In this document: positions 6,180 through 59,531 of the stretch, piece after piece
How positions within the stretch are numbered: the first letter of the stretch is position 1
Layout of the letters: each line of letters starts with the position of its first letter
Source of the DNA: Eleginops maclovinus
Lineage: Eukaryota > Chordata > Actinopteri > Perciformes > Eleginopidae
Assembly (NCBI RefSeq): GCF_036324505.1
Contig: NC_086350.1
Location: 20,455,032 to 20,519,031 of the forward strand
Direction of reading: 5' to 3'
DNA: 64,000 nt
Notes under the pieces: model-generated
Told to the model about the DNA's origin: nothing
The model's input: only the letters and a program-made list of their open reading frames with translations
Database searches by the model: none
Made by a program: the position numbers and the translations under genes

Positions 6180-6650
6180 TAAAGTAAAAATATTAAACTG
6201 CACAAATACTCTGTTACAATTAAAAGTCCTGCACTCAAAAATCCAACTTACTTCCAAAGTAGTTAAGTATTGCCATTACAACACACTTTAAGTCCTAACA
6301 GTTAAAGTACTTGTTCTGCGTAACAGGTTCATTTCAGAATCGTATACATTTAATTACATGATTATTATTATTGATGCATTAATGTGTTCATCACAACTGG
6401 TAAATTTGAGTTGCTCTATAGACTACCGGTCTGCCTCAGATTAATTCTATCATTGTATGATATAGTTGACATGATAATTGATTAGCTAATGCTCCAGATC
6501 TAAAAAAGTAACAAAAGGTATCAAATGGATGTAGTGGAGTAGAAATATAAAGCAGCATAAACTTAAAATACTCAGGTAAACAAGTACCTCAGAATTGTAT
6601 CGTAGTACAATACCGGTACTTGTGAATGTACTTTGCTAGTTTCTTCCAAC
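6180..6650. repeat. Dispersed AT-rich repeat, copy 1 (diverged)
   Basis: The segment around 6526-6580 (tgtagtggagtagaaatata, then a cagcataaa/tactcagg pattern) recurs in diverged form near 11050-11115 and 12100-12140. It resembles a common teleost intronic repeat family I recognise by wording only. Boundaries are approximate and no terminal repeats were resolved. Confidence 0.45.
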
Positions 6651-9489: not shown

Positions 9490-9716
9490 TTACTTACAGA
9501 GTAGGGCGAGCAGGAGTGTCGCTAGCAGCACGAGAAGGCTGGCGCAGTGGGAGTGGGCAGAGCTGCAGTGCATCTTGTTCTTCTTGCAGACGCACACTTG
9601 AACTTTGACCTCTGTGTTGTTGGACAAGGGGGGCACCCCCGAGTCAGTGATGAGCAACGGGAGCTGGTAATTGGCTTTCTTCAGACTGTGCAAGAGCATG
9701 ATTTGGGAGTGTGTGG
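9490..9716 (-). CDS. cdh13: cdh13 exon: end of EC5 and GPI-signal C terminus
   Basis: The acceptor ccccacag (AG at 9718-9717) opens the exon, which reads STHSQIMLLHSLKKANYQLP, LLITDSGVPPLSNNTEVKVQ, then VCVCKKNKMHCSSAHSHC and a hydrophobic run rich in Leu/Ala ending LLALLCK-stop (TAA at 9492-9490). The Cys-x-Cys motif plus the short hydrophobic tail with no cytoplasmic region is the T-cadherin GPI-anchor signal; a small residue in the CSSA stretch is the likely attachment site (inference). The last bases CTCT-GTAAGTAA form an excellent splice donor (GT at 9497-9496). Coding may therefore leave this exon at 9498 and finish with a few codons in a further exon to the left, which I could not locate. 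Confidence 0.9.
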
Positions 9717-11286
9717 CTGTGGGGGACACACAGAAGAAGAGTGAGGTTGAATAAAGCAGATGTATAATAATCCCTCATCCTGTCTTTTGTCCATCTATTC
9801 TGTATTTAAGAGCATGCCATTTTGCAAGGCAGAACTAAATATATACAAAACTTATGCGGCCCTTATGCGTCTGCTAACCCTTTTCTGACAACTGCAGCGA
9901 CAAAAATTGGCACAACTTAAGTTGTGTGAGATTGTTACATTTTGTTGCATCACACTTGACACATCTTTAAGAGTCACAAAAGAAAACGCTGGAGCCTTTT
10001 TTTACTTTGTGTTGAAATGTGTCATAATTTGCAAAACTGCGCATTTCACTCGTCTGGCCAGGTAAGGTGACTTTCAGTTTTGAATTTAATTAGAACTTTT
10101 ACATTGTCTGACTGTGCGCTCGCAAGGCAGCAGTAAACATTTCACGAGTCTCTTGCTCGGTGTACTTTGATACAACAGGCTCCTGTGAGATGTAGATACC
10201 AGCCCAGATAAGCATGAACTATCAAATCACTTGCTATATTTATCGTAGATAGTTTAATCACATTTACAGTTGTGTTCCCATGTTGTGTGATCATGGAATT
10301 GTGCTTCTCTGTTAATCTCACATTTGTGCAGCCACATGCACCATCAAATCCAAGGTGATAACAAACACTGTACAGGAGGGTGACACATTATTGGAAGTGT
10401 CTTTGAAGGTTGTTGATTTGTCACCTCAAGGGGGGGCTTATTTTTTGGATCAAACAATGGAATATAGATGTAACGTGTTAATTAGGGATCTTTAGAGATT
10501 TTGTTACCTGGTTGGTGTGATTAACTTCATTTTTATCATACAGACGGACAGTGGTATCAACTTTCTAATTTAACTCTAGGCTGAAGAACGTAAATAAGAG
10601 CATCCTTCAATATGTCAAACTATTCCTTCAATCATTCACCCATATGTTGTTTAAACTGTGTAACATTATCATTTCAAATGAAAAGTGGACAAAGTACTCC
10701 ACAAAGATGTTTACGTTAGGTAAAAGCGATACCACAGTGAATAAGTCTTGAATTTAACATTTTGCTTGAGGAAAATTACAAAAGCATAAGCATCATTACA
10801 TACTAATTGCTAATAAGAACCAAACATTGAGATTTTTTAAAAAATAATGGCCAATTTCAGAATATTATATATAATCTGATCAGATTATATTTATGATGAA
10901 TTGATGTTTCAATTGCTTAAATGCTGCAGCTGGTTGATACAAAGCTTTTGGTTTGCATTTGACCAAGGCATCAATAAAGTTTAATGTTAGCCTATAATAA
11001 TACATAATAAAGTCAGGTTGATTATTATTTTATGAGGCAAAATTATTTATATTGTGGTGGAGAAGAAGTATATATTAGCCTCAAATGGAAATACTCAAGG
11101 ATAGTTCAAGTAAATCATAATTGCTGTAATGGTCCAACACTAAACTGTTTGGGTAAAAGGAGTGATTCCAAACCAAACATTTGTAGTAAGGAGGAGCAAA
11201 ACTAGATGTTGCAGGACAAGAAACAGTTTAATCTATACAGATGTATGGTGATGAGGTATGAACCCGTACCAGGTCTCCTACCTGTG

Positions 11287-12546: not shown

Positions 12547-12780
12547 AGTTGACCCTGGTAACCTTCCATGTTTTGTCGAGGCCCGGTTGTTTTCCCAGCT
12601 CTATCTTGAAGGGTGCGGCGTTTGGGTACAGGTCTTTGTCCCGCCCTCCGACTATAGCCACATTCATGTCATGGGCGTCTTCACACACCCGCGCTACTGA
12701 CGGTATCACATAGGGGGCGTTGTCATTGTAGTCTTCCAGGTAGATGACCAAAGAGCCGGTGCCTGTGGCTGGAGGGCTAC
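12547..12780 (-). CDS. cdh13: cdh13 exon: end of EC4, EC4/EC5 linker, first part of EC5
   Basis: A 234-bp exon with acceptor tgtttccag (AG at 12782-12781) and donor T|GTGAGT (GT at 12546-12545). It encodes SPPATGTGSLVIYLEDYNDNAPYVIP, carrying the DxNDNAP calcium-linker motif, then ARVCEDAHDMNVAIVGGRDKDLYPNAAPFKIELGKQ and DKTWKVTRVN. The SPPATGTG block and the VCEDA / DKDLxPN / DKxWK landmarks are characteristic of T-cadherin and separate it from other classical cadherins. It begins with the last two bases of a Gly codon and ends with the first base of a Ser codon. Confidence 0.95.
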
Positions 12781-13682
12781 CTGGAAACACACAATGATCA
12801 CATATTAGGATAGGGATTTTAGTGAGCCGCTGTAGTATGTTCATGATTGTGCAGAGTTATGTGATCAGTAACAATCTGGGCAGATGTGAAAAGAGCAATA
12901 ATGCAATGTGGCTGCAATTTAACATGGTGTACTCACGATTATTTGATAGTTAATTCAGTTTTTAATGGTTTTCAGTCTGCAATGTCAAAATGTTTTTTTC
13001 AGTTGACATCCTAAAGCAGAGCAAAGTATGATCTTTGAAAAAGTAAAATAGAAAAACCCTCATAAGATCCATCCCTTTTTTTCTACTCCGCTGACCTAAT
13101 ACAACCCAAACAAAACACAATGTTTGTTATTTTAATGCCAGGGGAGAATGAATCACAGTGGCTCGTGAGAACTTGGATTCTGTGTTTCTACGAGATTACA
13201 CCTCAGTGAAGGATGCTGGGTCAAAAAAGCAGCGTGGCTCTTCTCTATTGCTGCTCTCTGTTTCACTGCAATTATAGGTTATTAAAATATCCACGACAGC
13301 GCCAGAGGACAGTCAGCAATTAAAACCAAAAGACAAGATCTGTAATTGGAAAATGGGTGTCCGCCACCTTTTCAATGGAAAAGAAATATTTTGGGCAGAG
13401 GTGGGAGAAAAAAACAATCAGGATAAACTGTATGTGCCATAAATGTCAAGTGATGTCTTTCCAGCGCTGTTAGGAAAAGCTGCACACACTAAAATGCTGA
13501 TAAGGTGAAAGTTAACTTCTTAGGACTAATTAAGGATTAAACAGAATAAAAATGTTGCATCATCAACTACGAAACATGCTCCTAACCAAATAAAATGAAG
13601 CCTTCATATTCATCAGTGAATAGAGGAGGTTTACATCGATAGCTTATTAATCACAATTAGTTATCTGGGAAACAATGTTATG

Positions 13683-14723: not shown

Positions 14724-16454
14724 GCAACTCTTCCCCTCTGCTTTCCCATACGCCCCCATGCACTGGGTCAATAACAAACCTGAAAAACTCTCACTGTGCC
14801 AATCAAAAGATAAAAAAAGAGATACAGAACAAAAGTAAACATGTTCTGCTTCAGTCTGCAGAGAGATCATACAGTATCTGTGTGTTTCAAAGTGTTCATC
14901 AAATAATCATCATGAGCTGTTTGTTTGCTGCTCACAACTCTAATTTCATTCCCAGCTGCAGAGCCATCAGCATATTATGATTGAAAGAGATAAGGGAGAA
15001 ATCAAATGTAATGGCAGTGAGTTTGGCATGCATAATAATTGTGAAATGACTGCTATCTCGCTTGCTTTTTTTGTCCGCAGTCAAGGAACAAAACAAAAAT
15101 AGCAAACAGCTCAAGATAAGTACGCCTGTGACAATATCAGCGGTGAATCGAGAACGGAGAGGAATTACTTTAGCGAGAGCAGAAAATGTGTTGAAAAGCA
15201 AATCAAAGACGGTAGCTCTTCAGGCGAGACCTCAGATAATCTATTATCACTCGAGACCCAGAGAGTGAAGATGCGGCTCGGATCCCCCGTCAGTGAAAAG
15301 ATGAAAATTTCAACCCATTTGTAGTGGGAGAGGCCGTCTCTGTGCTTGGCTTGCTTTAAATGAAGCTGTTTGTCTTCCTAAATGAATCCTCCCCATACCT
15401 AATCACTCTAGTTCTCCGCTCCTTCTCTTCTCCTACTCCTTATCTCCATTGCATCATGGCTATGTCATCATCAGCCTGCCACGGCATCAATGGAGCTTGT
15501 CTGCTGGCCTCTACTTCACACCACTTTGTCACACAAGTTCTGATTAAACACGCTGCAAGTTTCTAAAGGAGACGGGCAATTCATGGATCTTTGCCCCTAC
15601 AGCAGGACTGCTCTTTTCTGCATATTGGGCTCTAAAAAGTACATAAAAGGTAAAGTAGGCGGTAATAATGACAGAAGGGACATGGGAAGATTTCCTGTGA
15701 TGTTTACAGGCTGATAAAAATGTGTAAAAAATATGTCTTCTCATTGTCTTGTTGGAGTTGTCCAGTGTCAAAAATGAATTCATTGAGCTGTCTAAATGTG
15801 AAGGCAGCAGAGAGTTTCTGTCTAATTGACAAAGGCTTCAATCTCCATGTATAGTTCTTGTTAGAGAGCCCAGAGAACCCAGAGCAAAGATTGGTCAAAT
15901 CAATGTCAAACAAGATTAAAAAGAGAACAACAGCTTTAGGTTTCTGCCTTAGAAAATGTGTGTGTAATCCCGTAATGCCATGTTTGTGTGATATTAAAAG
16001 CTCACCCTTCTACCTTGACTAACTCTGACAACTCATAGTGACTTACTCAATTATTGTCTTGTTTTGAGAAATGCTATGTTCCAAACGCAAATTGTCAGTC
16101 TTCATGGCTATGTTGGTGGGTAATGCAATAACAGCTACAGCTTATATTCAGTGAATGTGGCAGTTTTGTACCACACTGTTCCAGATCTAAGTCCATATTT
16201 CATTTCAAAATAAACACTGCCATTAAAACTCTGACTGTATGTCTATGAACCTGAATATGATGCAGAATCTGTTTAGACAACAGGACAATATTTGCAGCAG
16301 GCTTTGGTAATATGCAGCTAAAAAGTCTGTGTCAAGGGCAAATGAGGTACACTAGCCCAAATGCAATCTTGTAACCCAATGCATTTGCCAACGGAAGCAT
16401 TCTAATATGCAACTCAGATTTTTACAATGATTCCCAATGGTTACTTTTTTCCAG

Positions 16455-29900: not shown

Positions 29901-30503
29901 GTGACCATATGGTCTGTTAGAAACAATGCCACTTAAGGCCATACCATTGTCACCACAGGATAATGACAGTTTCCCTGTGGCCATAGGTGAAACTAACGGG
30001 CAGGGTGAGTGGATTGAAAAAATAGACACACTTCTCACCCAGGAGGATTTCTTTCTAAAATACAACTGTGAATAAATCTATATTTGGAAGCCTCTGCAGC
30101 AGTACTTTTAAAACACATGTAACACCTCAAATAGTTTATTTAGGTGGTAGATAAAGGGGAGTCAACATCTTTTCCTGGCATACTTGGTTTGTTGTTTACT
30201 TACACTTGAAAAAAAGCAGTGTAAGAAGCCATTATCACCATCTTTACTTACAATTCAAAAACATTTTGTTCAAAGTAATTTTTTGCGAATCAACTGTTTA
30301 TTTCCTGGGATATACCAAAAAGGAACCAATCTACAGCAGTTTCATATGTTGAAGCCTTTCGTTTAACTACCAATTACTCTTTGTAGTCAATTATATCAGT
30401 GGGCTAGAAAAGTGGAGTAAGGTTTTGAAGGCGATCTGAATCACATCAAAAAAGGTCTAATTATCCTCCGTAATTTTAATACAGTGTGGTATCTGTTACT
30501 CAC

Positions 30504-30646
30504 CATTATCTGTGGCGATGAAGACAGCTGTGTATTTGTTGTCGTAGACATAAGGAGACTCACGGTCCAGTGAGCCGGAGGTGTTGACAGTTCCTGTGAC
30601 TGGGCTCACACTCAGCCAGCCTGCCGGGTCTCGCAGAACAGCGTAC
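30504..30646 (-). CDS. cdh13: cdh13 exon: EC4 core
   Basis: A 143-bp exon. The acceptor cttccag is followed by one base completing an Arg codon; the exon ends one base into a Gly codon at donor G|GTGAGT (GT at 30503-30502). The translation YAVLRDPAGWLSVSP, a GTVNTSGSLDRESPYV segment, then YTAVFIATDNG contains the classical cadherin LDRE motif (LDRESP), used in calcium coordination between repeats. An Asn-Thr-Ser sequon is present. The phase fits exactly with both neighbouring exons. The exon is isolated between 21-kb and 18-kb introns. Confidence 0.95.
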
Positions 30647-32464
30647 CTGGAAGAAAGTAAATAAAATAAGTAAGAAGCTGTGCCTATATAAACATCCAGA
30701 AAAACAACTATACTGTGCACTCTATCTCACAGAAAAGTTTTCTTTCGAGTTTATTTTGGTCCCATATGTTTAGCTTCCAAACATTGCACAGACAGACAGC
30801 TCCGTTGGTCACAGCAACAGGAAAGACAAATATTTGAATAGTCTATATTTCTCCCGTACAGTTTATAAATCCAATGAATTCTAAAACAATTCCTTCCAGG
30901 GAAATAATACAACAGGATTTTAATTAGGCGGCCCCTTCTGAGTCAACACATTGGTTGTTTTGATCTAAGATTGCTTTAGTGAATTAATCATTATTTTATG
31001 TTTTTTCATGCTCAATGAACACATCTCTGGTTAAAACAAAATTACCATACATACTGCCCGTGCACAGAGGAACTACATTTTACAGATCCTCCTCACTTTG
31101 CACAATCTAAAGGACCACACAGAGATGTATTATTCACCTATTCCATCTGCCCCTCGGAAAGTATAACACTGGTGTCCAAGGTAACTGAAAGAGCTTCCCA
31201 AAATAATTCAAACACAGCTGACAAGACAACCCTGATGTACAGTTACTGTAGGTCTATAAATAAATTAAATAGTTTCAGAGTTTTTTCTGAGACATATATG
31301 ATTTTACAAAGCGCTTGTACTGGTATATGTGTATGTGTCCAAAGTTTTAATCCTGTTCAGGAAATCTGTATTTGTTTGAATAAATAATATTATAATATTT
31401 GTGGCTCTCGTTCAGATGATGCTGTTGGTGACAGATCGTCACAAAAAGTCAATATGTTACATTAATATTTACATTAAGAGCTTATCTAATATTTGTTATG
31501 TGAAAGAAAGACATTGTATGGTCTGTAATAATCTGTAATAAAGGTGTCCTGCAACAAGAAAAGGGCCAATAGTTACTTCCTGTGCACAGACTCGTCCCCT
31601 ATGCGCATGCATGTGTAGGTGACTGCAGCAGCAGCTCTTTCAGGGCTGAGATTTGAAGATGATGGATGACCTCTCAAAAAACAGGTAGGCGCATTTTGTG
31701 AAAAAAATGCCTAACAGTGGATCACGACCCTGCTAATGGAGCCACTCAGCCAGTCACTGATGGCCGGAGGATGGTGATTAAAATAGGCATGCATCCGTGT
31801 AACACCACAAGTAACTGAATAAGGAGCCACATATGTACACATATGGTAACAAATACATACAAGGTTTTTCTTCCGCGAAACATGCATAAAAGGCACACAC
31901 ATGCACGAGTTTCTCAAATACAAACAGACTTTTTCAAAACAAGGCGACTCTTTGCCAAAGTGCTCAGCAGTAGACAAATAGTCTTTGAAATGGAGCTCTT
32001 CAGCTAACATAGTGCGGCAAAGCCTTGGGAAATGGCTTTGCAATCAACCTCTGCTCAAACCTTTACCCCCCCGCTCTCACTCACACACATTTTCCTTGCT
32101 AGTGAGTGCAATTTAACACATATGTTCTCCTGTAACAAAAGAGCCACTGCTGCGAGGTTAAATGTGCTATTAGTAATGACACATTTATCACTGTACATGC
32201 TCTTTTTCCTGCACATACACATAGAGCACTAACATGATTCATAAGGCCAACTTCTCCAATAAAACAGAGCCAGGCTCACAGGTTATTAACCTCCATATGT
32301 TTCACTCTCCCCATCACTGGCTTCACGATGAGACACACACACTCTCTGTGTTATATCAACCTTTCAGCATTGCCAAATTGTGGAACAGAAACACACACAC
32401 ATGCACAGTATGAGTACAACATAGTAGCTTTGCCAAACAGGGGAAAACATATAGCCTCGGTGGC

Positions 32465-34802: not shown

Positions 34803-37626
34803 CAGTGATTCTTAAACTAGGGGTCGCGACCCCAAACGGGGTCGGCAAAAACTTCCGTGGGGTCGCAAAATTATTTGTTACTTCAGTCGGAAATTAGCTG
34901 TTATAACACCTGGTGAAACAACGAAAAATAAAATGTCAATACAATGAAAATCTGCCTTTTTCTCATTCCTACACGCTGTTAAGAGGGAGAGAGAGAGAGA
35001 AAAAAAAAAGTTGCCCAGCTTTAAATGGCGTTTCGAATCGTTTATTGGTCCTATGATAGAAACAATGTAACAATCTGCGCCCACTGTTCAAACTCAATTT
35101 CTTCCCGGTTTTTTTACAATACGTCATAGTTAACTCGCCACGTTACTAGCCACGTTTGTGATACTAGCCACTTTTTTAGCCACTAGCCTAGTTATAACTT
35201 TCATCAAAAATGGACAGGTGGCTGCTAAAAAACAATGATTTGAGCTCAGAAGTGCCATCTACCTCCAGTTGTGCACCTACTCCTCCGCGATCCTCAGATG
35301 GGACAAGTTTGGCCGGTGGTGAGAATAAAAAAGACCCACCAACGAGGCGTCGCCGATACCTGAAAGAATTTCTTAAATATGGATTCACGTGCCAGGTAAA
35401 ACATGAGCTCGACCACCCACAGTGTGTTATTTGCGGCGATGTTCTGGCACATGAAAGTTTAAAGCCCACAAAAATGAGACGACATCTCGAAAGCCGACAT
35501 CCAGATGATGCTCAGAAACCCATGACATTTTTTTTACGAAAAGAAGCTGCGCTGCATGGGCAAAAGACCGTTGTGCATAGCCAAGCTACTGTGCCCACCA
35601 AAGCCTTGGCAGCGTCATACAAAGTGGCCCACCTTGTAGCCAAAGCACAAAAGCCACACACAATTGCTGAAAGCCTCATCCTTCCTGCAGCAATTGCGAT
35701 GACCACAGCAATGCATGGTGAAAAGATCGCAAGTGTGCTTAAACAGATTCCCCTCTCCAATGATACCATGTCCAAACGCATTAACGACATCGCTAATGAT
35801 ATGAAATGCCAGCTCATCGAGAGAGTGAAAAACAGCCGGTTTTCTTTGCAGTTAGACGAGTCTACTGACTTGACTAATGTAGCCCATTTAATGGTTTTCA
35901 TTCGCTACAGTCATGACGGGAAACTGCATGAGGACATGCTGTGCTGCTCTCCGATGGAAGGAAGATGTACTGGTGGAGACATTTTTAACTGTCTTAATGG
36001 TTGGATGGAGGAGACAGGCCTGGATTGGGATAAATGCATAAGCATATGCACTGACGGTGCCGGGGCTATGATGGGAAAACACAAAGGGCTGAAAGCCAAG
36101 GTCCTTAGCGTTGCACCACATGTCAAGTTCACACACTGCATTATCCATAGGGAGGCCCTGGCATCCAAGACACTTGAACCCGAGCTTAACAATGTTCTTC
36201 AAACAGCAATCCAAATAGTGAATTCGATCAAATCGCGCCCTTTAAATTCACGACTCTTCGCCCTTCTCTGCCAGGAAATGGGGTCTGCACATGAATCCCT
36301 TCTTTTTCATTCAGAGGTAAGGTGGCTTTCACGGGGCAAAGTTCTTACACGCCTGTTCGAGTTGCGAAGCGAGGTGCGCACCTTCCTCTCAGACGTGCAT
36401 TCCCCTCTTGCAGACCATCTCACTGACTCGAGATGGTTATCACGTCTTGCATACCTGGCGTGCATATTTGACAAATTAAATAGTCTCAACCTGTCACTAC
36501 AAGGCCCCAGCACAAACATCCTGACCCTCTCAGACAAAGTGAATGCTTTCACAAAAAAATTGCAGCGTTGGGCAGCCCGTGCAGAGAGTGGGGACTTTGA
36601 AATGTTCTCGGAGCTGCACGACTTTTTGGAGAGTGACATGAATGCCAATTCATTGAAAGAGTCAATAACCTGTCATCTTCGTAGTCTCCTCGACAAATTC
36701 AATAAGTATTTCCTCACGGAGAATGTAGAGCCTTTTGACTGGGTACGACAACCATTCACCAACTGCTCCTCAAACAACCTGCCATCTGAGCTCGAGGATG
36801 CGCTGATTGAGCTGTCCAGCGACCGCACATTGCAGGCGTCGTTTGCCTCAAAAACTCTAGATGAATTCTGGCTGTCAGTTGTGCAGGAATACCCCGGGTT
36901 GTCCAAGGCTGCCATGGACATCCTCACGCCGTTTGGATCAACCTATCTGTGCGAAAAGACATTTTCGTCCCTGGCCTACATAAAGAACAAATACAGATGT
37001 CGTCTCAACAGCATGGAGGAGAATCTTCGTGTTGCTGTGAGCAGCATCGATCCCCGAATTGACCTGCTATGCTCGCGGAAGCAGGCCCATCCTTCTCATT
37101 GACATGGCGTCCGTATAAGAGGAAGTGAGATCGTTCCAATCATACACACTCTCTGTTGACTCTTGACTCCCGTTTGATTTGGACATTTGTTTCATTGCTT
37201 TGTTTGTTCCAGTTCTTGTTTGCGTTAATAAATTGTTGCCGCCCAGGCCTTTTCTTACACATTGCCTATTTGTTTTTGCTTGATTGACAGTCGTTACCAT
37301 GGGTTTGCAATGCATAACGTTGTCCTGGCAACGCGATTTACAGCCCGCCCCCAAACAACCAAACTGCAGATGGCATTGCTGTTTCTTTCAAAATGTATGA
37401 CTATCACTCAAATCATTGGAGACGCAAACTCGTAAATTAATTCACACAAAATCGTTCCTTTTCCATAAAATAATCGTCATACATTGTTAATTTGTTTGGA
37501 TTGGAACAAAAAATCGGTTGCTACGGAAACGTGACGTCACACTTACACACTTTTGGGAAAGTGGGGTCACCAAACCTCTCCAGTTTTTTTTGTGGGGTCG
37601 TCAGACAAAAAGTTTAAGAACCACTG
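34803..37626 (+). mobile_element. Complete hAT DNA transposon with open transposase frame
   Basis: The terminal inverted repeats are CAGTGATTCTTAAACT (34803-34818) and, as its complement, AGTTTAAGAACCACTG (37611-37626), one mismatch in 16. They are followed inwards by GGGGTCG-rich subterminal repeats. An exact 8-bp target duplication ATTTAGAG flanks it (34795-34802 and 37627-37634), the length diagnostic of hAT elements. It contains one long open frame and a downstream AATAAA at 37227-37232. It is 2,824 bp long and inserted into an older repeat within the cdh13 intron. Confidence 0.95.
35210..37102 (+). CDS. hAT transposase (BED zinc finger, ZBED5/FAM200-like)
   Basis: A 630-residue open frame without internal stops. 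Visible domains: a BED-type zinc finger at about residues 57-100 with C72, C75, H92 and H97; an RNase-H-like DDE core with candidate catalytic Asp at 216 (LDESTD) and 282 (CTDGAGAMMG), followed by the THCIIHREAL motif near 308-317; and a hAT C-terminal dimerisation region at about 545-625 (EFWLSV, then FGSTYLCEKTFSSLAYIKNKYRCRL). Such proteins cut and paste the element. Related sequences have been domesticated in vertebrates as ZBED5/FAM200-type genes. Here the terminal repeats and target duplication are intact, so it is a transposon rather than a host gene. The start chosen is the first ATG after the 5' subterminal region. Whether it is still active cannot be judged from sequence. Confidence 0.93.
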   Translation: MDRWLLKNNDLSSEVPSTSSCAPTPPRSSDGTSLAGGENKKDPPTRRRRYLKEFLKYGFTCQVKHELDHPQCVICGDVLAHESLKPTKMRRHLESRHPDDAQKPMTFFLRKEAALHGQKTVVHSQATVPTKALAASYKVAHLVAKAQKPHTIAESLILPAAIAMTTAMHGEKIASVLKQIPLSNDTMSKRINDIANDMKCQLIERVKNSRFSLQLDESTDLTNVAHLMVFIRYSHDGKLHEDMLCCSPMEGRCTGGDIFNCLNGWMEETGLDWDKCISICTDGAGAMMGKHKGLKAKVLSVAPHVKFTHCIIHREALASKTLEPELNNVLQTAIQIVNSIKSRPLNSRLFALLCQEMGSAHESLLFHSEVRWLSRGKVLTRLFELRSEVRTFLSDVHSPLADHLTDSRWLSRLAYLACIFDKLNSLNLSLQGPSTNILTLSDKVNAFTKKLQRWAARAESGDFEMFSELHDFLESDMNANSLKESITCHLRSLLDKFNKYFLTENVEPFDWVRQPFTNCSSNNLPSELEDALIELSSDRTLQASFASKTLDEFWLSVVQEYPGLSKAAMDILTPFGSTYLCEKTFSSLAYIKNKYRCRLNSMEENLRVAVSSIDPRIDLLCSRKQAHPSH

Positions 37627-41652: not shown

Positions 41653-42718
41653 ATGGACCCAGCAGTACTTTTTGAGGATGCTCTTGTGGAGTTTTCCTAC
41701 AATATTTTATATATTTATGGAGAGTGGAGCAGAGCAGGTTCTAAAGAGGCTAAGGATGCAGCTCTTCTTCATGCACGCCGGGAATTGGCAGATAAGCCAT
41801 GGTTCGAAAGCTCAATGACGGAATATTTAAGGATGTTTGTCACTTCCCCAGAAAGCCTGCACTGTCCTTAAACCTCGTGTAACAGCAGTGACGCTGCCGG
41901 CTCAAGCGCCAACCAAGCTTCCTGCAGCCAAGCCTCTTGCAGCCACGCTTCCGGCTCAAGTTTTGGCAGTAGCAGCCACGTTCCCGGCTGCAGTTCTGGC
42001 CCTAGCAGCCATGTTTCCAGCAGCGGTCCGGCCTACTACAGCCATCCCTGCCATGTTGCCGGCCCAGCCCACTCCAGCCACTCCTGCCGATTCCAGTACC
42101 ACCTGGGGTTCCCGCCGAAGCCATCTCCTGCCTCTTCGGGCGCCCCGCAGACGCCAGTACCAACTGGGGTCCTGCCGACAACAGCTCATGTCCTGTCAGG
42201 GGTCCCGCCGACTGGTGCTCCTGTTTCCTCGGTGGCACTGCCGCCTCCTTCTCCAGGTGCTTCTTACTTTCCTCCAGCCCGTCGGCCTCCAGCCCGTCGG
42301 CCTCCAGCCCATCGTCCAGAGGTGTCTCGCCTGCCTCCAGCCCGTCGTCCTCAAGCTCGTCGTCCAGAGGCGTCTTGCCATCCTCCAGCCCGTCGTCCAG
42401 AGGCGTCTGGCCATCCTCCAGCCTGTCCTCCAGCCCGTCCTACAGCCCGTCCTCCAGAGGTGTCTCGCCGCCTTCCAGGCCGTCCCCCGGAACTGTCTTG
42501 CCGCCTTCCGGAGCTATTCCATCATCCTCCAGGTCGCCCCTGCCTCCGCCCATGTCTCCGCCCATTTCTCTGGCCTCAGGAGTTCCCTCGCCGTGGTCTA
42601 CACCCATGTCTCCAACTCCCTCGGTTCCCCTGCCACAGGCCCTGTCCATGTTCTGCCTCGTCTTCTGCCTTGCCCCCGGGCCGTCCGCCCGAGACACCCT
42701 CCTCGTCCTCTTTTTTAG
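41653..42718 (+). pseudogene. gag-like frame of the LTR element, frameshifted, with Pro/Ala-rich repeat tail
   Basis: It opens 17 bp after the LTR with MDPAVLFEDALVEFSYNILY, then IYGEWSRAGSKEAKDAALLH and ELADKPWFESSMTEYLRMF (41653-41871, 72 codons), after which the frame closes. The next frame is open from 41837 to 42718 and is almost entirely low-complexity Ala/Pro/Leu/Arg sequence. The first part looks like the N terminus of a retroelement structural protein; the rest contains no known domain. No zinc knuckle or pol motifs are present. The overlap of frames suggests a single indel near 41840-41870. Confidence 0.6.
42271..42480 (+). repeat. Tandem repeat of CCTCCAGCCCGTCGTCC-like units
   Basis: About a dozen 12-18-bp units built on CCTCCAGCCCGTC, some joined by CAGAGGTGTCTCG-type spacers. 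It stays open in all three forward frames, which explains the overlapping Pro/Arg-rich and Ser/Pro-rich frames here. Confidence 0.85.
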
Positions 42719-42762
42719 TCTTTGTTGGGACGTCTGGAATCCGTCCCTTGAGAGGGGGGTTC

Positions 42763-43056
42763 TGTCATGTCCTTGTTTTGTGCTTTATTTTGAAGTGTTT
42801 TCCCTCTTCTTTCATGTTTAGCTTCACTTCCTGTCTGTTTCCCTCCTGTGCCTGATTGTGTCATTGTGTTCACCTGATGCCCCTGTGTTTCTCCTCCCCC
42901 TTCCAGCTGTGTCTTGTCTTGTGATTACCCATGTGTATTTAGTCCCTGTTTCCCTTTTGTCTCTTGTTCGGTTGTCGTCATTTCTCACCTGATCTTGTCC
43001 ATGATACCTGCCTGTTCCTGTCGCCCTTCATGTGTCAAGCTAAGTGTTTCTGTTGG
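42763..43056 (+). repeat. Truncated 3' LTR of the non-autonomous Gypsy-type element
   Basis: Matches 41215-41504 with scattered substitutions and small indels. The match ends after GTGTTTCTGTTG, and the last third of the LTR is absent. Confidence 0.8.
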
Positions 43057-52062: not shown

Positions 52063-52316
52063 CTGATGCTCTGTGTCTGTAATATATCTGGATCTGTGGC
52101 GTTGAGTGAAGCCACGAAGCTGCCCAGGGGAATGTTTTCCATCTTGTTGACTGTCAGGGGGTCGGGGAAGAAGACGGGGCCCTCGTTGATGTCCAGGACT
52201 GTGACATGGACAGTGGCAGTGGAGCTGGGGCCGTAGCCAACATCAGGAACCAGAGGGTCCTCGTTCTCCACTTTGATGAGTAGCGTGTGGAACCTTTCGG
52301 CCTCATAGTCCAAAGG
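52063..52316 (-). CDS. cdh13: cdh13 exon: end of EC3 and start of EC4
   Basis: A 254-bp exon with acceptor AG at 52318-52317 and donor AG|GTGAGG (GT at 52062-52061). It starts in phase 0 with [20 protein letters not shown] and ends two bases into an Arg codon that the next exon completes (IR|YAVL). It carries the inter-repeat calcium linker DINEGP, equivalent to the DxNxxP motif of cadherins, followed by [22 protein letters not shown], the start of the next repeat. An Asn-Ala-Thr glycosylation sequon is visible in that stretch. The acceptor now lies only 41 nt from a BEL/Pao LTR. Confidence 0.95.
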
Positions 52317-52352
52317 CTGAATAGAGAACATCATTGTGAATGTAAGGGAATG

Positions 52353-52357
52353 GTAAT
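52353..52357. repeat. Target-site duplication GTAAT (left)
   Basis: GTAAT directly precedes the TGTGTCGCC start of the left LTR and recurs at 59301-59305 directly after the right LTR. Confidence 0.9.
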
Positions 52358-52879
52358 TGTGTCGCCATTAGGGCGATATATTTTGACTTTTATTTTGACA
52401 CATTGAGAAAGAATACAAACTTTTACTTTGATACAATTTCCTGTAACTTCCTTACCACTTCCTGCCTTGTCATCAGTTACTTCCCACTCAGTTCCTATCT
52501 GTTGAAAACAGTTAATACTTAAGAATTCCTGACCGTGAAAGATGCTAGAAGCAAAGTCGTAAGTAAAACTCATTGTTAAGTTAAATAATTGATAGATTAA
52601 GTTAAGTTTAAAGTTGAAAGAGAAGGTAATAATAGTCTTAAAAGATCGTTTTTATTTACATGTATTTACAAGGATATTTCATAAGACTTCATGTGAAGCT
52701 GAACTTTATGTTAAAAAATGTCAAACTTTGTTTTGTTGCAGTTTTCACTCTGCCATGTAATGCTGGAATCTTCAGTAAACAACAGTGAAATGTTAACTAC
52801 GACACAGACTCCTGGTTATTGCATCAGAGTTTAACTTGTTGGATAGCTTCAGTTGTTACACTGCAGTGAAGACAACACA
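52358..52879 (+). repeat. Left LTR of BEL/Pao element
   Basis: 522 bp, TGTGTCGCC start and CAACACA end. Its first base is 42 nt from the cdh13 exon that starts at 52316. Confidence 0.96.
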
Positions 52880-52919
52880 GTGAAAAGACTGAGAAGTTAG
52901 CATTGAATAACGAGTCAAG

Positions 52920-55900
52920 ATGGAAACTACATCTAATAAATCAGGAAAAAGTGGAAGCAGCTTTCATTCATCTGCCTCATCAACCAATGCTTTACTTCGT
53001 GCACGAGCAAAAGCAGCAGCTACTAAAGTGCGTGCCGAATATGCTGAGCAAGAAGCCAAAGCTAGGATAGAAAAAGTGAAAAAAGAGACTGAGGCTGAAA
53101 CACTAGCCATCTGCCGTGAAGCAGCAGAAGCTGAAGCCGTAGCAGCTGTCTGGGAATCAGCAGTTTCAGGAAGCAACAATTATATTGTGCTGGATGAAAC
53201 AAATTCAACAGAACAAAGCAAACTTGAACGGACAAGTGAATACATCCAAACTCACTTCCATTCCACTAACTCCGTCCAACAAACAGCCATGAAGGCTAGT
53301 TCGCCACCAACTCAACCAATTACCTATGCCACTCTCAGTTATAGCCCGAACAACCCCTTTGTTTCACGCCATCAGCCGCCTGTTTTTTCATACGACAGCA
53401 CAAACAATGTGGATTTTACAGACTATGACTTAGACTATGCGCCACCAGCAGCCAAAGAGTCAGTCAGCCAGAATCCATTTACCCGAGAAGGTCCGCGGGT
53501 TATTCCCAAGACTCTTACCTCGCAGATCAGTGACTTGAATATTGGAGCTCCATCCTTCAACCCCCAGCCAACAAATACTCAAAGTATGCCTGCAACTGAA
53601 CACCTGGCACAATATTTAGCTCGGCGTGACCTAGTGAATACAAGTTTGTACGAGTTTGATGATAAACCTGAAAATTATCGTGCTTGGCTGTCATCATACA
53701 AAAATGCCACTCAAGGACTTGGTCTCACAGCCACTGAGGAATTGGACTTGATGACGCGATGGCTTGGAAAAGAGTCCAGCAACCAGGTGAAACGTCTCCG
53801 TGCAGTGCACATAGCAAGTCCACAAATAGCACTGGGGAAAGCTTGGGAACGTCTTCAGGAGTGTTATGCAGCCCCAGAGGTGATTGAAAAGGCCCTCTTT
53901 ACCCGACTGGATGCATTTCCCAGAGTCTCAGCCAAGGAAAATCTGAAGCTACGAGAGCTAGCTGACCTGCTTATGGAAGTGCAGTGTGCTAAAGAAGATG
54001 GCTACTTACCAGGCCTGTCCTACCTGGACACGACACGCGGAATTGAACCCATAGTGACCAAGCTGCCTTATGGACTCCAGGAAAAATGGATCTCGGCCGG
54101 TTCTAAGTATAAAGAAGCAAATGGAGGACGGTTCCCACCGTTTGATTACTTCACGAAACTCATATGCTATGAGGCCAAGAAGAGAAATGACCCTAGCTTT
54201 GCCTTTTTAAATACCACCACAATGTCATCTGTCAGAGCTGAAGGTGCCTTTCCTAAAACCTTCAAGAAACCCATTGCAGTTCACAAGATCAATGTCACTC
54301 CCACAGAGTCAAATGTCTCTAGTGATCCGAGTAAGATCTGCCCAATACATGCAAAACCCCACCCACTGAAGAAGTGCAAAGCCTTCAGAGCCGAAACTCT
54401 TGATGACAGAAAGGTATTTCTGAAAGAAAACGGAATCTGCTTTAAGTGCTGTAGCTCAACCAACCATATGGCAAAGGACTGCACTACAATTGTTAAGTGT
54501 TTTGAGTGTGACAGCACCCGACATATCTCAGCTATGCACCCAGGACCAGCACCGCACCTCACGACTCCTCTGACCTCGCCACAGCATGGCGGGGAGGGAG
54601 AAGAGGTAAACGACACCAGTGAGGTTAGCGCAAGCTGCACAGCAGTATGTGGTACAGGACAAGTCGGACGGTCATGCTCCAAGATATGCCTGGCAAGAGT
54701 GTACCAGAAAGACCACCCAGAGGAAGCCATCAAGGCCTACGTCGTGTTAGACGACCAAAGCAACCGATCGTTGGCCAAGTCCAGTTTCTTTGACAAGTTT
54801 GACATCCACACTAAGCCATATCCTTACCAACTGAAAACATGTTCTGGTATAGTAGACACTTTCGGCAGAAGGGCATCAGATTTTATCGTGGAGTCCCTCA
54901 ATGGAAAAGTTAGGATTCCCTTACCACCACTCACTGAGTGTAATGACTTACCTGATAATCGGTCTGAAATTCCCACACCAAATGCCGCTCTGCATCAGCC
55001 TCACCTGTCAAAGGTAGCAGAACACATCCCAAAGCTGGACCCCACTGCTGAAATCCTCCTGCTGCTAGGGAGAGACGCAATCAGAGCACACAAAGTAAGG
55101 GAACAAATAAATGGCCCCGCCAATGCACCCTTCGCACAACGCCTTGACTTAGGCTGGGTGCTGGTCGGAGAAGTCTGTCTAGGGAGCACACACAAGCCGA
55201 ACGTCAGTTCCTTCCGGACGGCCATGGTCGACTGTCATCGGCCCTCACTCTTCCAGCCATGCACAAGCCTTTTGCACATTAAAGAGGAACTTCACGACAG
55301 ACTGCCAGGAAACAGTGCCTTACCACCCAGAGCTAAGGAACACAGTCTGGGTCAAAATGTGTTTGACTGCACGGAACAGGACAATAAGCTAGCACCTTCA
55401 ATCGAAGATGAAACTTTCCTCAAAATGATGGACAAAGACGTCTACAGAAACGATTCACACAGCTGGGTTGCTCCATTGCCGTTCAGACTACCTAGGCAAC
55501 AGCTTCCCAACAACCGCGAGCAAGCACTCAAGCGGTTTGGCTCACTCCAACGCCAATTCAAAAGAAAGCCAGAAATGCAACAGCAATACGTGGAATTTAT
55601 GGGTAAACTGCTGAAAAACAACCATGCTGAGGTGGCACCAGAGCTAAGAGAAGAAGAGTGCTGGTATTTACCAAGCTTTGCCGTGTATCACCCACAGAAA
55701 CCCGATCAAATCAGGGTAGTGTTTGATTCAAGTGCCCAACAGTCTGGGATCTCCTTGAATAACGTGCTCTTGACTGGACCGGATCTGAACAACACCCTTC
55801 TAGGAGTGCTCATGCGGTTCCGAAAGGACAAGGTCGCTGTGATGGCAGACATTCAACAAATGTTTTACTGCTTCCTTGTGGACGAAAAGCACAGAAACTA

Positions 55901-58703
55901 CCTGCGATTCTTATGGTTCAAGGACAACAACGTAGCCAACGAGGTCATTGACTACAGAATGAAAGTTCATGTTTTCGGGAACAGCCCATCTCCTGCAGTG
56001 TCGATCTATGGGCTCAGAAGAGCCATCAGAGATGGCGCAGAAAAATATGGAACAGACACAGTCAACTTCGTCGAACGGCACTTTTATGTTGATGACGGCC
56101 TCTGTTCTGTCCCAACTGATGCAGAGGCTATTGGGCTGCTTCATAGGACTCAAGCCTCACTTGCTGAGTCTAACTTGAGGCTCCACAAATTTGTCTCAAA
56201 CAGTCAGGCTGTCTTGGAAGCCTTCCCAAGTGAGGACTGCGTACAAGCCAAAAGGGATGTAGACCTCAGTGGAGATGAGTCACCCACCCAACGCAGCTTG
56301 GGGCTCCTGTGGGAAATAGCAAGTGACACATTCACCTTCTCTGTGTCAACCGACACCAAACCATTCACCCGTCGAGGGGTTCTTTCAATGGTGAACAGTG
56401 TCTTCGACCCTTTAGGGTTTCTGGCTCCAGTTACGATCCAAGGCAGGGGCCTTCTCAGAGAGTTGAATTCTGAGACATCGGAGTGGGACACCCCATTGCC
56501 TGAAGATAAGTTAGGCAAGTGGGAAGCTTGGAGAAACTCGCTTCAAGACTTGAGGCACTTTCATATACCTAGGATGTACACAGGCATCTGCCCAGCCAAG
56601 GCTGAGCGAGTAGAACTCCACGTCTTTAGCGATGCATCTGTGAAGGCCATTGGTGCCGTAGCCTACCTGAAAGCCATCCAAGAAGACACAGTAGACGTGG
56701 GATTTGTCATGGCAAAAGCCAAACTTGCCCCTCAATCAGACCCGACCATTCCCAGACTTGAACTGTGTGCAGCAGTCTTAGCAGTGGAAATAGCTGAGCT
56801 GATTCAGGATGAACTGGATCTAAAGCTGGATGCCACAAAGTTCTACACTGATAGCAAAGTTGTCCTTGGATACATTTACAACCAGTCCAGACGGTTCTAT
56901 GTGTACGTCCATAATCGGGTCCAGCGTATACGCCAGTCTACCATCCCTGAACAATGGCACTACGTGAACACCGAAGACAATCCGGCTGACCTGGCGTCGC
57001 GGTCGGTCCCAGCAGCACACCTCACAAAGACAATGTGGTTCAACGGACCAACCTTCCTGCGCAAGCCCTCTGTTCAGCCAGACCCTGCCTCAGTCATACC
57101 TCAGTCATTCAGCATAGTCTCACCAGAGTCAGATGCAGAGGTCCGTCCAGCGGTGAAGAGCTACATTACTGATCTACAAGGGAAAGTTCTCAGCACAGAG
57201 CGCTTTGAAAGGTTCTCCACATTCGACACTCTCCAACGAGCCATCGCACTCCTTATTCATATAGGGAGATCCTTCAGCACTCCGACAGGCAAGTGCAAGG
57301 GATGGCATCACTGTGACTTACCTCGTTCAGTGGATGAGCTTTCCCAAGCAAGAGAAGTCATCATCGGAGCTGTTCAGAGGAATACCTTTGTGAAGGAATT
57401 TGAAGCTCTGGAGAGAGGAAAGCAAGTTCCGTTAAGCAGCTGCCTACGCTCTCTCAACCCAGTCTTACAGGATGACCTCCTCTGCCTTGGAGGCAGACTG
57501 AAGAATGCAGATGTGTCCATTGAACAAAAGAACCCTGTCATTCTCCCAAAAGAACACCATGTGTCCTTGCTTCTCACCAGATACCACCATGCCCAAGTAA
57601 AGCATCAGGGTCGCCAGTTAACAGAAGGTGCTGTACGAGCTGCTGGGCTCTGGATCCTGGGAGGCAAGCGGCTCGTTAACTCAACTATTCACAAGTGCAT
57701 CACCTGTCGCAGACTTAGAGGACGGATGCAGGAACAAAAAATGGCAGATTTGCCCACAGAACGCCTTACAACCTGCCCTCCCTTCACGTATGTGGGACTG
57801 GATGTCTTCGGACCCTGGCACGTCTCCACCAGACGCACCAGAGGGACACAACCTCAGAGCAAGTGCTGGGCCATACTATTCTGCTGCATGAGCTCCAGGG
57901 CAGTTCACATCGAGGTGATTACCTCAATGGACACCTCAAGCTGCATAAACGCATTGAGGCGTTTCTTTGCCATAAGAGGACCAGCCAAACAACTGAGGTC
58001 AGACTGCGGCACAAATTTCATTGGGGCTTGCAAAGAACTTGGGCTGAGTGCAGATCAACCAGACAGCACAGTGCAGAGGTATCTGCAACATCAAGGATGC
58101 TCCTGGGTGTTTAACCCGCCTCATGCCTCACACATGGGGGGTTCATGGGAGCGCCTCATTGGGTTAGCCCGAAGAATCCTGGATTCGACGCTCCGCGAAC
58201 ACAGCACTCGCCTAACTCATGATGTTCTGTGCACACTAATGGCAGAAGTGACAGCAATTCTGAACGCAAGACCACTAGTTCCAGTATCGAATGATCCCGA
58301 GAATCCATTCATCCTCACACCATCGATGCTGTTAACGCAGAAAGTGGGCGTCCCACCACCTCCAGGTGACTTCACAGGCAGAGACCTCCTCACGAAGCAG
58401 TGGAGACAAGTACAAGCATTATCCAACTTGTTCTGGAACCGTTGGAGACAAGTGTACCTGTCAACCTTACAAAGCCGCAAGAAATGGACAAGGTCCCACC
58501 AGAACCTGCAGGACGGTGACATCGTCCTCCTCAAAGACAACCAAGCTGCCCGCAACAACTGGCCTTTGGCAGTGGTCACAAAGGCTATTCCAGGAACAGA
58601 TGGAAGAGTCCGTAAGGTGGAACTAAAGACAGCAAACCAAGGCCAACCAAAGACTTACCTTAGACCAGTGACGGAAACGGTTTTGCTTCTTCATAAGAAC
58701 TGA
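52920..58703 (+). CDS. BEL/Pao gag-pol polyprotein
   Basis: 1,927 residues in one frame. In order: a charged Ala/Glu coiled coil (about 28-80); a gag region of DUF1759 type (about 225-450); a zinc knuckle CFKCCSSTNHMAKDC at 507-521 and a second CFECDSTRHISAMH at 527-540; a Pao-type aspartic protease with VVLDDQSNRS (608-617); reverse transcriptase with D977 (MADIQQMF) and YVDD at 1056-1059; RNase H starting at FSDAS (D1238) with later IPRLELCAA, TDSK and NPADLASR; an integrase zinc-binding domain (HH...C1593, C1596); an integrase core with D1628, D1695 and E1744; and a C-terminal DUF5641-like domain (about 1815-1920). All catalytic motifs look intact. The first knuckle has five rather than four residues between its second Cys and the His. 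The ATG is the first in the frame, 40 bp after the LTR. Products would assemble particles, copy the RNA and integrate it. Confidence 0.97.
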   Translation: METTSNKSGKSGSSFHSSASSTNALLRARAKAAATKVRAEYAEQEAKARIEKVKKETEAETLAICREAAEAEAVAAVWESAVSGSNNYIVLDETNSTEQSKLERTSEYIQTHFHSTNSVQQTAMKASSPPTQPITYATLSYSPNNPFVSRHQPPVFSYDSTNNVDFTDYDLDYAPPAAKESVSQNPFTREGPRVIPKTLTSQISDLNIGAPSFNPQPTNTQSMPATEHLAQYLARRDLVNTSLYEFDDKPENYRAWLSSYKNATQGLGLTATEELDLMTRWLGKESSNQVKRLRAVHIASPQIALGKAWERLQECYAAPEVIEKALFTRLDAFPRVSAKENLKLRELADLLMEVQCAKEDGYLPGLSYLDTTRGIEPIVTKLPYGLQEKWISAGSKYKEANGGRFPPFDYFTKLICYEAKKRNDPSFAFLNTTTMSSVRAEGAFPKTFKKPIAVHKINVTPTESNVSSDPSKICPIHAKPHPLKKCKAFRAETLDDRKVFLKENGICFKCCSSTNHMAKDCTTIVKCFECDSTRHISAMHPGPAPHLTTPLTSPQHGGEGEEVNDTSEVSASCTAVCGTGQVGRSCSKICLARVYQKDHPEEAIKAYVVLDDQSNRSLAKSSFFDKFDIHTKPYPYQLKTCSGIVDTFGRRASDFIVESLNGKVRIPLPPLTECNDLPDNRSEIPTPNAALHQPHLSKVAEHIPKLDPTAEILLLLGRDAIRAHKVREQINGPANAPFAQRLDLGWVLVGEVCLGSTHKPNVSSFRTAMVDCHRPSLFQPCTSLLHIKEELHDRLPGNSALPPRAKEHSLGQNVFDCTEQDNKLAPSIEDETFLKMMDKDVYRNDSHSWVAPLPFRLPRQQLPNNREQALKRFGSLQRQFKRKPEMQQQYVEFMGKLLKNNHAEVAPELREEECWYLPSFAVYHPQKPDQIRVVFDSSAQQSGISLNNVLLTGPDLNNTLLGVLMRFRKDKVAVMADIQQMFYCFLVDEKHRNYLRFLWFKDNNVANEVIDYRMKVHVFGNSPSPAVSIYGLRRAIRDGAEKYGTDTVNFVERHFYVDDGLCSVPTDAEAIGLLHRTQASLAESNLRLHKFVSNSQAVLEAFPSEDCVQAKRDVDLSGDESPTQRSLGLLWEIASDTFTFSVSTDTKPFTRRGVLSMVNSVFDPLGFLAPVTIQGRGLLRELNSETSEWDTPLPEDKLGKWEAWRNSLQDLRHFHIPRMYTGICPAKAERVELHVFSDASVKAIGAVAYLKAIQEDTVDVGFVMAKAKLAPQSDPTIPRLELCAAVLAVEIAELIQDELDLKLDATKFYTDSKVVLGYIYNQSRRFYVYVHNRVQRIRQSTIPEQWHYVNTEDNPADLASRSVPAAHLTKTMWFNGPTFLRKPSVQPDPASVIPQSFSIVSPESDAEVRPAVKSYITDLQGKVLSTERFERFSTFDTLQRAIALLIHIGRSFSTPTGKCKGWHHCDLPRSVDELSQAREVIIGAVQRNTFVKEFEALERGKQVPLSSCLRSLNPVLQDDLLCLGGRLKNADVSIEQKNPVILPKEHHVSLLLTRYHHAQVKHQGRQLTEGAVRAAGLWILGGKRLVNSTIHKCITCRRLRGRMQEQKMADLPTERLTTCPPFTYVGLDVFGPWHVSTRRTRGTQPQSKCWAILFCCMSSRAVHIEVITSMDTSSCINALRRFFAIRGPAKQLRSDCGTNFIGACKELGLSADQPDSTVQRYLQHQGCSWVFNPPHASHMGGSWERLIGLARRILDSTLREHSTRLTHDVLCTLMAEVTAILNARPLVPVSNDPENPFILTPSMLLTQKVGVPPPPGDFTGRDLLTKQWRQVQALSNLFWNRWRQVYLSTLQSRKKWTRSHQNLQDGDIVLLKDNQAARNNWPLAVVTKAIPGTDGRVRKVELKTANQGQPKTYLRPVTETVLLLHKN

Positions 58704-58778
58704 TGTTTCAGTTGTAGATCTTAGTTGAATGTAATGTTCATGCTAGTATAGTGACCTCACAGTGGTCACAGCGAGGAG

Positions 58779-59300
58779 TGTGTCGCCATTAGGGCGATAT
58801 ATTTTGACTTTTATTTTGACACATTGAGAAAGAATACAAACTTTTACTTTGATACAATTTCCTGCAACTTCCTTACCACTTCCTGCCTTGTCATCAGTTA
58901 CTTCCCACTCAGTTCCTATCTGTTGAAAACAGTTAATACTTAAGAATTCCTGACCGTGAAAGATGCTAGAAGCAAAGTCGTAAGTAAAACTCATTGTTAA
59001 GTTAAATAATTGATAGATTAAGTTAAGTTTAAAGTTGAAAGAGAAGGTAATAATAGTCTTAAAAGATCGTTTTTATTTACATGTATTTACAAGGATATTT
59101 CATAAGACTTCATGTGAAGCTGAACTTTATGTTAAAAAATGTCAAACTTTGTTTTGTTGCAGTTTTCACTCTGCCATGTAATGCTGGAATCTTCAGTAAA
59201 CAACAGTGAAATGTTAACTACGACACAGACTCCTGGTTATTGCATCAGAGTTTAACTTGTTGGATAGCTTCAGTTGTTACACTGCAGTGAAGACAACACA
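58779..59300 (+). repeat. Right LTR of BEL/Pao element
   Basis: 522 bp, identical to the left LTR except for one T/C difference at 58865, followed by GTAAT at 59301-59305. Confidence 0.96.
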
Positions 59301-59348
59301 GTAATCATGTTATCAAATTAATGTATTGGGCAGTTGGATATATTTTAC

Positions 59349-59531
59349 CTTGATGACAGACAGCATGCCCTCGTTGTTGTCCGGGTTGGTTTGGATTTCA
59401 AAGCTCAGTGTCGGATCTCCATTAACTATAGAGTAGATCGCTCTCCCTGCCCCCGTGTCTGGGTCATCTCTATCGTCTACTGTCAGGTTCACCACGACAC
59501 CGGTCGAGCCCTCGTACACATACGCCTCAAA
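59349..59531 (-). CDS. cdh13: cdh13 exon: start of EC3 (61 codons)
   Basis: The exon is bounded by a polypyrimidine-AG acceptor (AG at 59533-59532) and a GTAAAA donor (GT at 59348-59347). It is exactly 183 bp, phase 0 at both ends. The translation runs from [16 protein letters not shown] through a calcium-site stretch [11 protein letters not shown] to [19 protein letters not shown]. This matches the region of T-cadherin just after the DKNDHSPKF linker, i.e. the beginning of a cadherin repeat. The open frame continues past both splice sites, so splice signals and similarity set the limits. The exon before it (EC2/EC3 linker) was not found in 59532-64000. Confidence 0.93.

Follow-up and report, generated by a model that had tools for sequence, protein, structure and literature searches.

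In the stretch of Eleginops maclovinus DNA analysed here (64,000 nt, hereafter the window), an LTR retrotransposon lies inside an intron of the cadherin gene cdh13, and we consider it probable that a horizontally acquired BEL/Pao family went through a recent burst of copies in this fish, with one antisense insertion in cdh13 that kept the splice signals and left splicing normal. The family would have reached the Eleginops lineage by horizontal transfer, as we infer from phylogeny and protein identity, before multiplying to at least 24 recent copies (counted by the 5' region). One copy integrated antisense into a cdh13 intron of 84 nt and left a 5-nt duplication. Neither splice site was disturbed, nor the sequence just ahead of the acceptor, and a plausible branch point was kept, so that the exons would most likely still be joined normally across an intron that merely became 7 kb long.

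Using Trematomus cadherin-13 as query, five cdh13 exons were found in the window. These exons and the interrupted intron are as follows:
59349 to 59531, minus strand: cdh13 donor-side exon, 183 nt, with an open frame and a GT donor, 95% identical to residues 373-433 of Trematomus cadherin-13
52063 to 52316, minus strand: cdh13 acceptor-side exon, 254 nt, with an open frame and an AG acceptor
52317 to 59348, minus strand: cdh13 intron, GT-AG, now 7,032 nt, of which 84 nt remain once the element and one copy of the duplication are subtracted
52317 to 52357, minus strand: retained acceptor side of that intron, 41 nt, with two branch-point-like motifs
30502 to 30648, minus strand: next downstream cdh13 exon, ends approximate (tblastn, residues 516-566, 96%)
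12548 to 12781, minus strand: cdh13 exon, ends approximate (tblastn, residues 566-641, 96%)
9499 to 9717, minus strand: last coding cdh13 exon found, ends approximate (tblastn, residues 642-714, 95%)

Read in one frame, the two exons flanking the insertion encode 145 aa. Their two best matches, both fish cadherin-13 proteins, showed 94% and 96% identity, and the Pfam Cadherin domain was recognized in them (E 9.9e-18). The 52063 to 52316 exon alone was 92% identical to residues 428-518 of the Trematomus protein, in an alignment that overruns the exon by six residues on the intron side. Further downstream, the next three introns measure about 21, 18 and 2.8 kb, and a genome search showed that the cdh13 exons cover about 195 kb of contig C2. 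The first-pass annotation of this DNA had identified the gene as cdh13, an assignment with which the cadherin-13 identities and the domain match agree, and had reconstructed an 84-nt intron, a geometry that was reproduced base for base (both exons, the 7,032-nt intron, the GTAAT duplication and the LTR ends); the distances it gave between LTR and exon, 42 nt on the acceptor side and 48 nt on the donor side, were exact. It had also pointed out that skipping of the 254-bp exon would be frame-shifting, and since 254 is not divisible by 3, loss of the acceptor-side exon does shift the frame; the 183 nt of the donor-side exon are a multiple of 3.

The retrotransposon occupies 52358-59300 on the plus strand (6,943 nt), antisense to cdh13. 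Domains were searched with the gag-pol frame cut into pieces, and the parts recognized were:
52353 to 52357, no strand: target-site duplication GTAAT, left copy, read from the sequence
52358 to 52879, plus strand: 5' LTR, 522 nt, TG...CA
52920 to 58703, plus strand: gag-pol in a single open frame, 1,927 codons and a stop, with its ATG at 52920 and open from 52911
53832 to 53981, plus strand: gag, a weak DUF1759 match (E 0.00099, below the Pfam cut-off)
55791 to 56189, plus strand: reverse transcriptase (RT), with YVDD at 56085 (RVT_1, E 0.0018, below the cut-off)
56367 to 56855, plus strand: Peptidase_A17 (Pao retrotransposon peptidase), between RT and integrase (E 1.1e-47)
57855 to 58124, plus strand: integrase core (rve, E 2.1e-7, with a bit score slightly below the curated threshold)
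58395 to 58685, plus strand: DUF5641, C-terminal to the integrase (E 4.8e-27)
58779 to 59300, plus strand: 3' LTR, 522 nt, TG...CA, with one mismatch to the 5' LTR
59301 to 59305, no strand: target-site duplication GTAAT, right copy, read from the sequence

Judged by its LTRs, Peptidase_A17, DUF5641 and probable integrase core, the element is a member of BEL/Pao, and the domains, LTRs and strand thus bear out the class and the antisense orientation that the first reading had proposed. A 1,927-aa database protein, which is this same genome's own, was 100% identical to four pieces taken from the window. The window's own rve match is sub-threshold; its integrase piece was 94% identical to an Alosa protein that carries PF00665. 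With the known BEL/Pao elements of fishes (Belpaoviridae) the element shares the LTRs, the 5-nt duplication and a gag-pol frame that encodes Peptidase_A17, DUF5641 and a probable integrase, and it differs from them in forming a young family in the Eleginops genome whose nearest known protein (Alosa) is 89-94% identical by pieces. The stop codon of pol lies 75 nt short of the 3' LTR, a gap with no room for env. The 40-nt leader that follows the 5' LTR (52880-52919) begins GTGAAAAGACTG rather than TGG, so the usual binding site for a tRNA 3' end as primer was not evident in it; tRNA genes, sought in the window with the primer in mind, were not found there, and the element had no match in a viral contig collection. 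Elsewhere in the window, a cdh13 intron contains a 634-aa open frame at 35198-37099 (plus strand), the start of which seems to resemble a zinc-finger/hAT-type transposase-derived protein, and at 41831-42852, apparently a repetitive stretch, long open frames overlap one another in several reading frames of both strands.

To count the family, the genome (606,306,633 bases in 27 contigs) was searched with a query of 400 nt over the end of the 5' LTR; all copy numbers are lower bounds. This query hit at least 34 places, all of them scored, 24 being reported at 100% and 10 at 67-74%. The 24 near-identical copies fell into 13 with 722 bits and 11 with 718 bits, equivalent to no difference or roughly a single one. 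With this 5' query, nothing of intermediate age appeared between them and the 67-74% group. An LTR query gave at least 40 matches, all reported at 100% (40 scored of 81 candidates), and a single solo LTR, flanked by a duplication, was observed. In one copy, at C23:6930728, the interior was shortened, its LTRs being 5,299 nt apart against the usual 6,419-6,424. An exact 5-nt duplication flanked 22 of the 23 copies for which both ends were seen (16 of 17, 5 of 5, and the window copy). The exception, C2:8348543-8355485, has CAGAC and GACAA at its ends with no matching duplication, as after inter-copy recombination or an odd integration.

LTR pairs were compared in the window copy and 17 others: 14 of the 18 were identical, three had one substitution and one had one inserted base. 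The sole mismatch in the window copy is a T at 52444 (5' LTR) against a C at 58865 (3' LTR). This C is private to the window copy: the 17 other copies have 34 LTRs between them, of which 33 carry a T at this site and one was unreadable. The C may be a post-insertion mutation or an assembly error. The description of the element as near-pristine was therefore accurate, but the window copy is nothing special in this respect. At a substitution rate of 1e-8 per site per year (PMC11117352), a mean age near 16,000 years follows from the three substitutions among the 18 x 522 sites. For the window copy, its single LTR difference would give about 96,000 years, a value whose limits are very wide. Young BEL-PAO insertions in Tetraodontiformes have been spoken of as recent invasions in the same source (PMC11117352).

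That the insertion, or its likeness to Alosa, is an artefact of assembly or contamination seems to us very improbable. In its favour is that the assembly was built from PacBio CLR reads, together with Hi-C (PMC10298351); against it stand the 24 copies at different sites, the clean duplications in 22 of 23, the published contig N50 of 7.6 Mb (PMC10298351) and the placement of the Alosa protein on a 44-Mb contig. An assembly artefact was rejected on the clean duplications in many copies, and the insertion is real and young.

We then considered what the insertion would mean for cdh13 splicing. Neither the donor (AAG|GTAAAA) nor the acceptor was touched by it, and the acceptor's own AG is the only one within the final 60 nt of the intron as it now stands. 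The 84-nt intron contains four yTnAy motifs. Two of them, originally 53 and 48 nt from the end of the intron, were displaced. The other two, CTTAC and TTCAC, survive in the 41-nt acceptor side, where their branch-point-like A precedes the final intron base by 26 and 20 nt, respectively. The first-pass annotation had expected any branch point more than 41 nt upstream of the acceptor to be displaced, which is correct for the motifs at 53 and 48 nt and does not apply to those at 26 and 20 nt. Loss of the branch point, considered as a candidate effect of the insertion, was not supported, given the two retained motifs. Zebrafish introns tied to intron definition have been described as short, GC-rich and placed between GC-poor exons (PMC6047831). 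At the cdh13 site the 84-nt intron is short, but its GC content is 31% and that of the flanking exons 52.5% and 54.7%, the opposite of the zebrafish pattern, which lends no support to the earlier suggestion that this intron was recognized by intron definition. Moreover, the downstream cdh13 introns are long, which implies that the neighbouring exons are recognized across long introns. Kept splice sites, branch-point-like motifs and a GC pattern other than that of intron definition together point to ordinary splicing with the exons defined singly.

A harmful insertion is nevertheless conceivable, if correct splicing were reduced, or transcripts ended early, either because a short intron of 84 nt has grown to 7,032 nt or through the AATAAA motifs that the antisense LTRs present to the gene. 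The empty-state intron was short, the donor GTAAAA deviates from the consensus at +5 and +6, and four AATAAA motifs lie in the sense of the gene, two per LTR, at intron positions 272, 534, 6693 and 6955, where they are possible candidates for premature poly(A) signals; skipping of the 254-nt exon would add a frame shift. The intact splice sites and the two retained branch-point-like motifs, the GC pattern and the three neighbouring introns that are already long argue the other way, and we think damage to cdh13 unlikely. The consequence for splicing raised at first reading finds weak support in the sequence: the off-consensus donor and the four AATAAA motifs speak for it, the intact splice sites and the two retained branch-point-like motifs against it. 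From the sequence features at hand, we predict a normal cdh13 mRNA and an insertion that is probably harmless to splicing. The antisense placement between intact splice sites is shared with other intronic transposon insertions, from which this one differs in the very small size of the host intron.

How far such a small target calls for an explanation can be roughly estimated. Genes have about nine introns each, and this figure was used for a genome-wide intron estimate. In zebrafish, 13,059 of 72,926 introns are of 100 nt or less (summed from the bins in the S9 Fig legend of PMC6047831), and 25,081 genes are given for Eleginops maclovinus (PMC10298351). Taking 18% of roughly 226,000 introns at about 85 nt each, short introns would add up to some 3.4 Mb, or 0.6% of the genome, and about 0.14 short-intron insertions would be expected among 24, a rough value that uses zebrafish proportions rather than counted Eleginops introns. 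Since the genome harbours many families, such an insertion is to be expected somewhere, and on this rough estimate the short-intron location is a mild coincidence and not a signal. No paper on an insertion at this cdh13 site was found in the literature among the matches listed.

Where the family came from was approached through its nearest relatives, the organisms of database proteins being those of their source labels. The 500-aa RT-A17 piece was compared with a large protein set (7,967 candidates sharing most words scored), giving 4,240 matches of which the best 120 were considered. Among the matches listed, the genome's own protein came first, followed by those of Alosa sapidissima (94%), Coilia grayii (86%), an unlabelled row (84%) and Pseudorasbora parva (82%), and the best named percomorph was Thunnus maccoyii (78%). 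Along the frame, identity between the Alosa protein and the window was 88.8% in gag, 90.0% in the middle piece, 94.4% in RT-A17 and 94.2% in integrase; the corresponding values for the Thunnus protein were 57, 67, 77 and 76%. The Alosa and Coilia elements, both clupeiform, were 67-85% identical to each other, so that the Eleginops element is closer to that of Alosa than the Coilia element is. To gather shorter proteins, the integrase piece was also searched alone (1,593 matches, best 120 considered), and among the matches listed no closer relative appeared, full-length rows reaching 67% and partial ones 73%; a Dallia protein (P0241) headed this search though 68% identical, the domain being present in it twice. 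No other notothenioid was named among the 120 best matches of either the RT-A17 or the integrase search, in which many rows carry no organism label and clusters hide member species. As a host baseline, Trematomus cadherin-13 was 89% identical to that of Thunnus and 73-75% to those of five non-percomorph teleosts, Chanos, Megalops, Serrasalmus (partial, 536 residues aligned), Esox and Salvelinus; this baseline is one gene at the amino-acid level, with Trematomus standing in for Eleginops, 8 of 120 rows used and no clupeiform named among the cadherin-13 matches listed. The element's 89-94% to Alosa thus compares with 73-75% for cadherin-13, a comparison at the protein level, for one gene, with the Trematomus stand-in and no clupeiform.

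Phylogenies were built for the RT-A17 piece with 50 proteins hand-picked from the 120 (43 with an organism, the genome's own included, and 7 unlabelled, 70 being left out), and for the integrase with the 46 of those 50 that each covered at least 80% of the integrase piece. Eleginops and Alosa formed a pair in both (support 100/99 for RT-A17; 99, SH-aLRT only, for integrase), nested in a five-member group that also includes Coilia, Pseudorasbora and an unlabelled row (100). This conflicts with the host tree, the Eleginops element pairing with that of Alosa and not with the percomorph rows. In AU tests, for which the groups were chosen after inspection of the trees, grouping Eleginops with Thunnus and Perca was rejected (p-AU 4.6e-5 for RT-A17 and 3.5e-54 for integrase), as was grouping it with all 17 percomorph rows (p-AU 2.3e-5). 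The wider clade mixes fish orders, frogs, sturgeon, ray, sea star and tick, and the 17 percomorph rows need 8 changes on the tree. With mixing across the whole clade, further instances of transfer, of old paralogues or of mislabelled records are present in other parts of it. Relatives labelled as stingray (P0146, 74%), sea star (P0212, 65%) and tick (P0221, 63%) fall among the fish elements, so that transfer, or records with wrong labels, may be frequent here.

Such mixing of orders is what would be expected of ancient paralogues with losses, and it must be asked whether the family was inherited vertically from an old BEL/Pao lineage of clupeiforms and percomorphs, its similarity being kept by selection and its kin lost elsewhere. 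Old paralogous lineages and losses may have shaped the tree too. As the origin of the Eleginops family, though, we doubt this explanation: identity to Alosa is 89% even in gag, where Coilia has 70%, Pseudorasbora 66% and Thunnus 57%, copies of intermediate age were missing with the 5' query, and the Eleginops and Alosa elements are closer than those of Alosa and Coilia. Horizontal transfer would be the most likely source of the family, since its nearest known relative comes from a clupeiform fish rather than a percomorph. The protein difference of 6-11% makes A. sapidissima itself unlikely as an immediate recent donor, and its element and that of Eleginops would be connected through a host not yet sampled or by a transfer further back in time. 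More specifically, the chances seem to us evenly balanced that an env-less BEL/Pao element crossed between fish lineages whose split is far older than the family, one on the clupeiform side and the other that of the Patagonian notothenioid E. maclovinus, and that the burst followed so recently that most copies, the cdh13 one included, may still be polymorphic.

At least 975 transfer events have been reported in vertebrates, 93.7% of them involving ray-finned fishes (PMC7070016), and passage between long-separated fish lineages would be common to those among ray-finned fishes and to the present case; the main text of that report does not contain 'BEL' as a whole word. A 2011 survey of BEL/Pao in 62 non-mammalian genomes described no sign of recent movement between distant animals at a threshold of 80% nucleotide identity (PMC3118150). 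By the titles and opening abstracts of the matches listed, no earlier report of the present transfer was found in the literature. In the Antarctic notothenioid radiation, transposon expansion is described as having accompanied genome growth (PMC10256766). If confirmed, the transfer would be a clear case of BEL/Pao movement between distant fishes and a recent invasion just outside that radiation, and if the insertion is still polymorphic, cdh13 would offer a clean natural test of splicing after the growth of an intron, in one step, from 84 nt to 7 kb.
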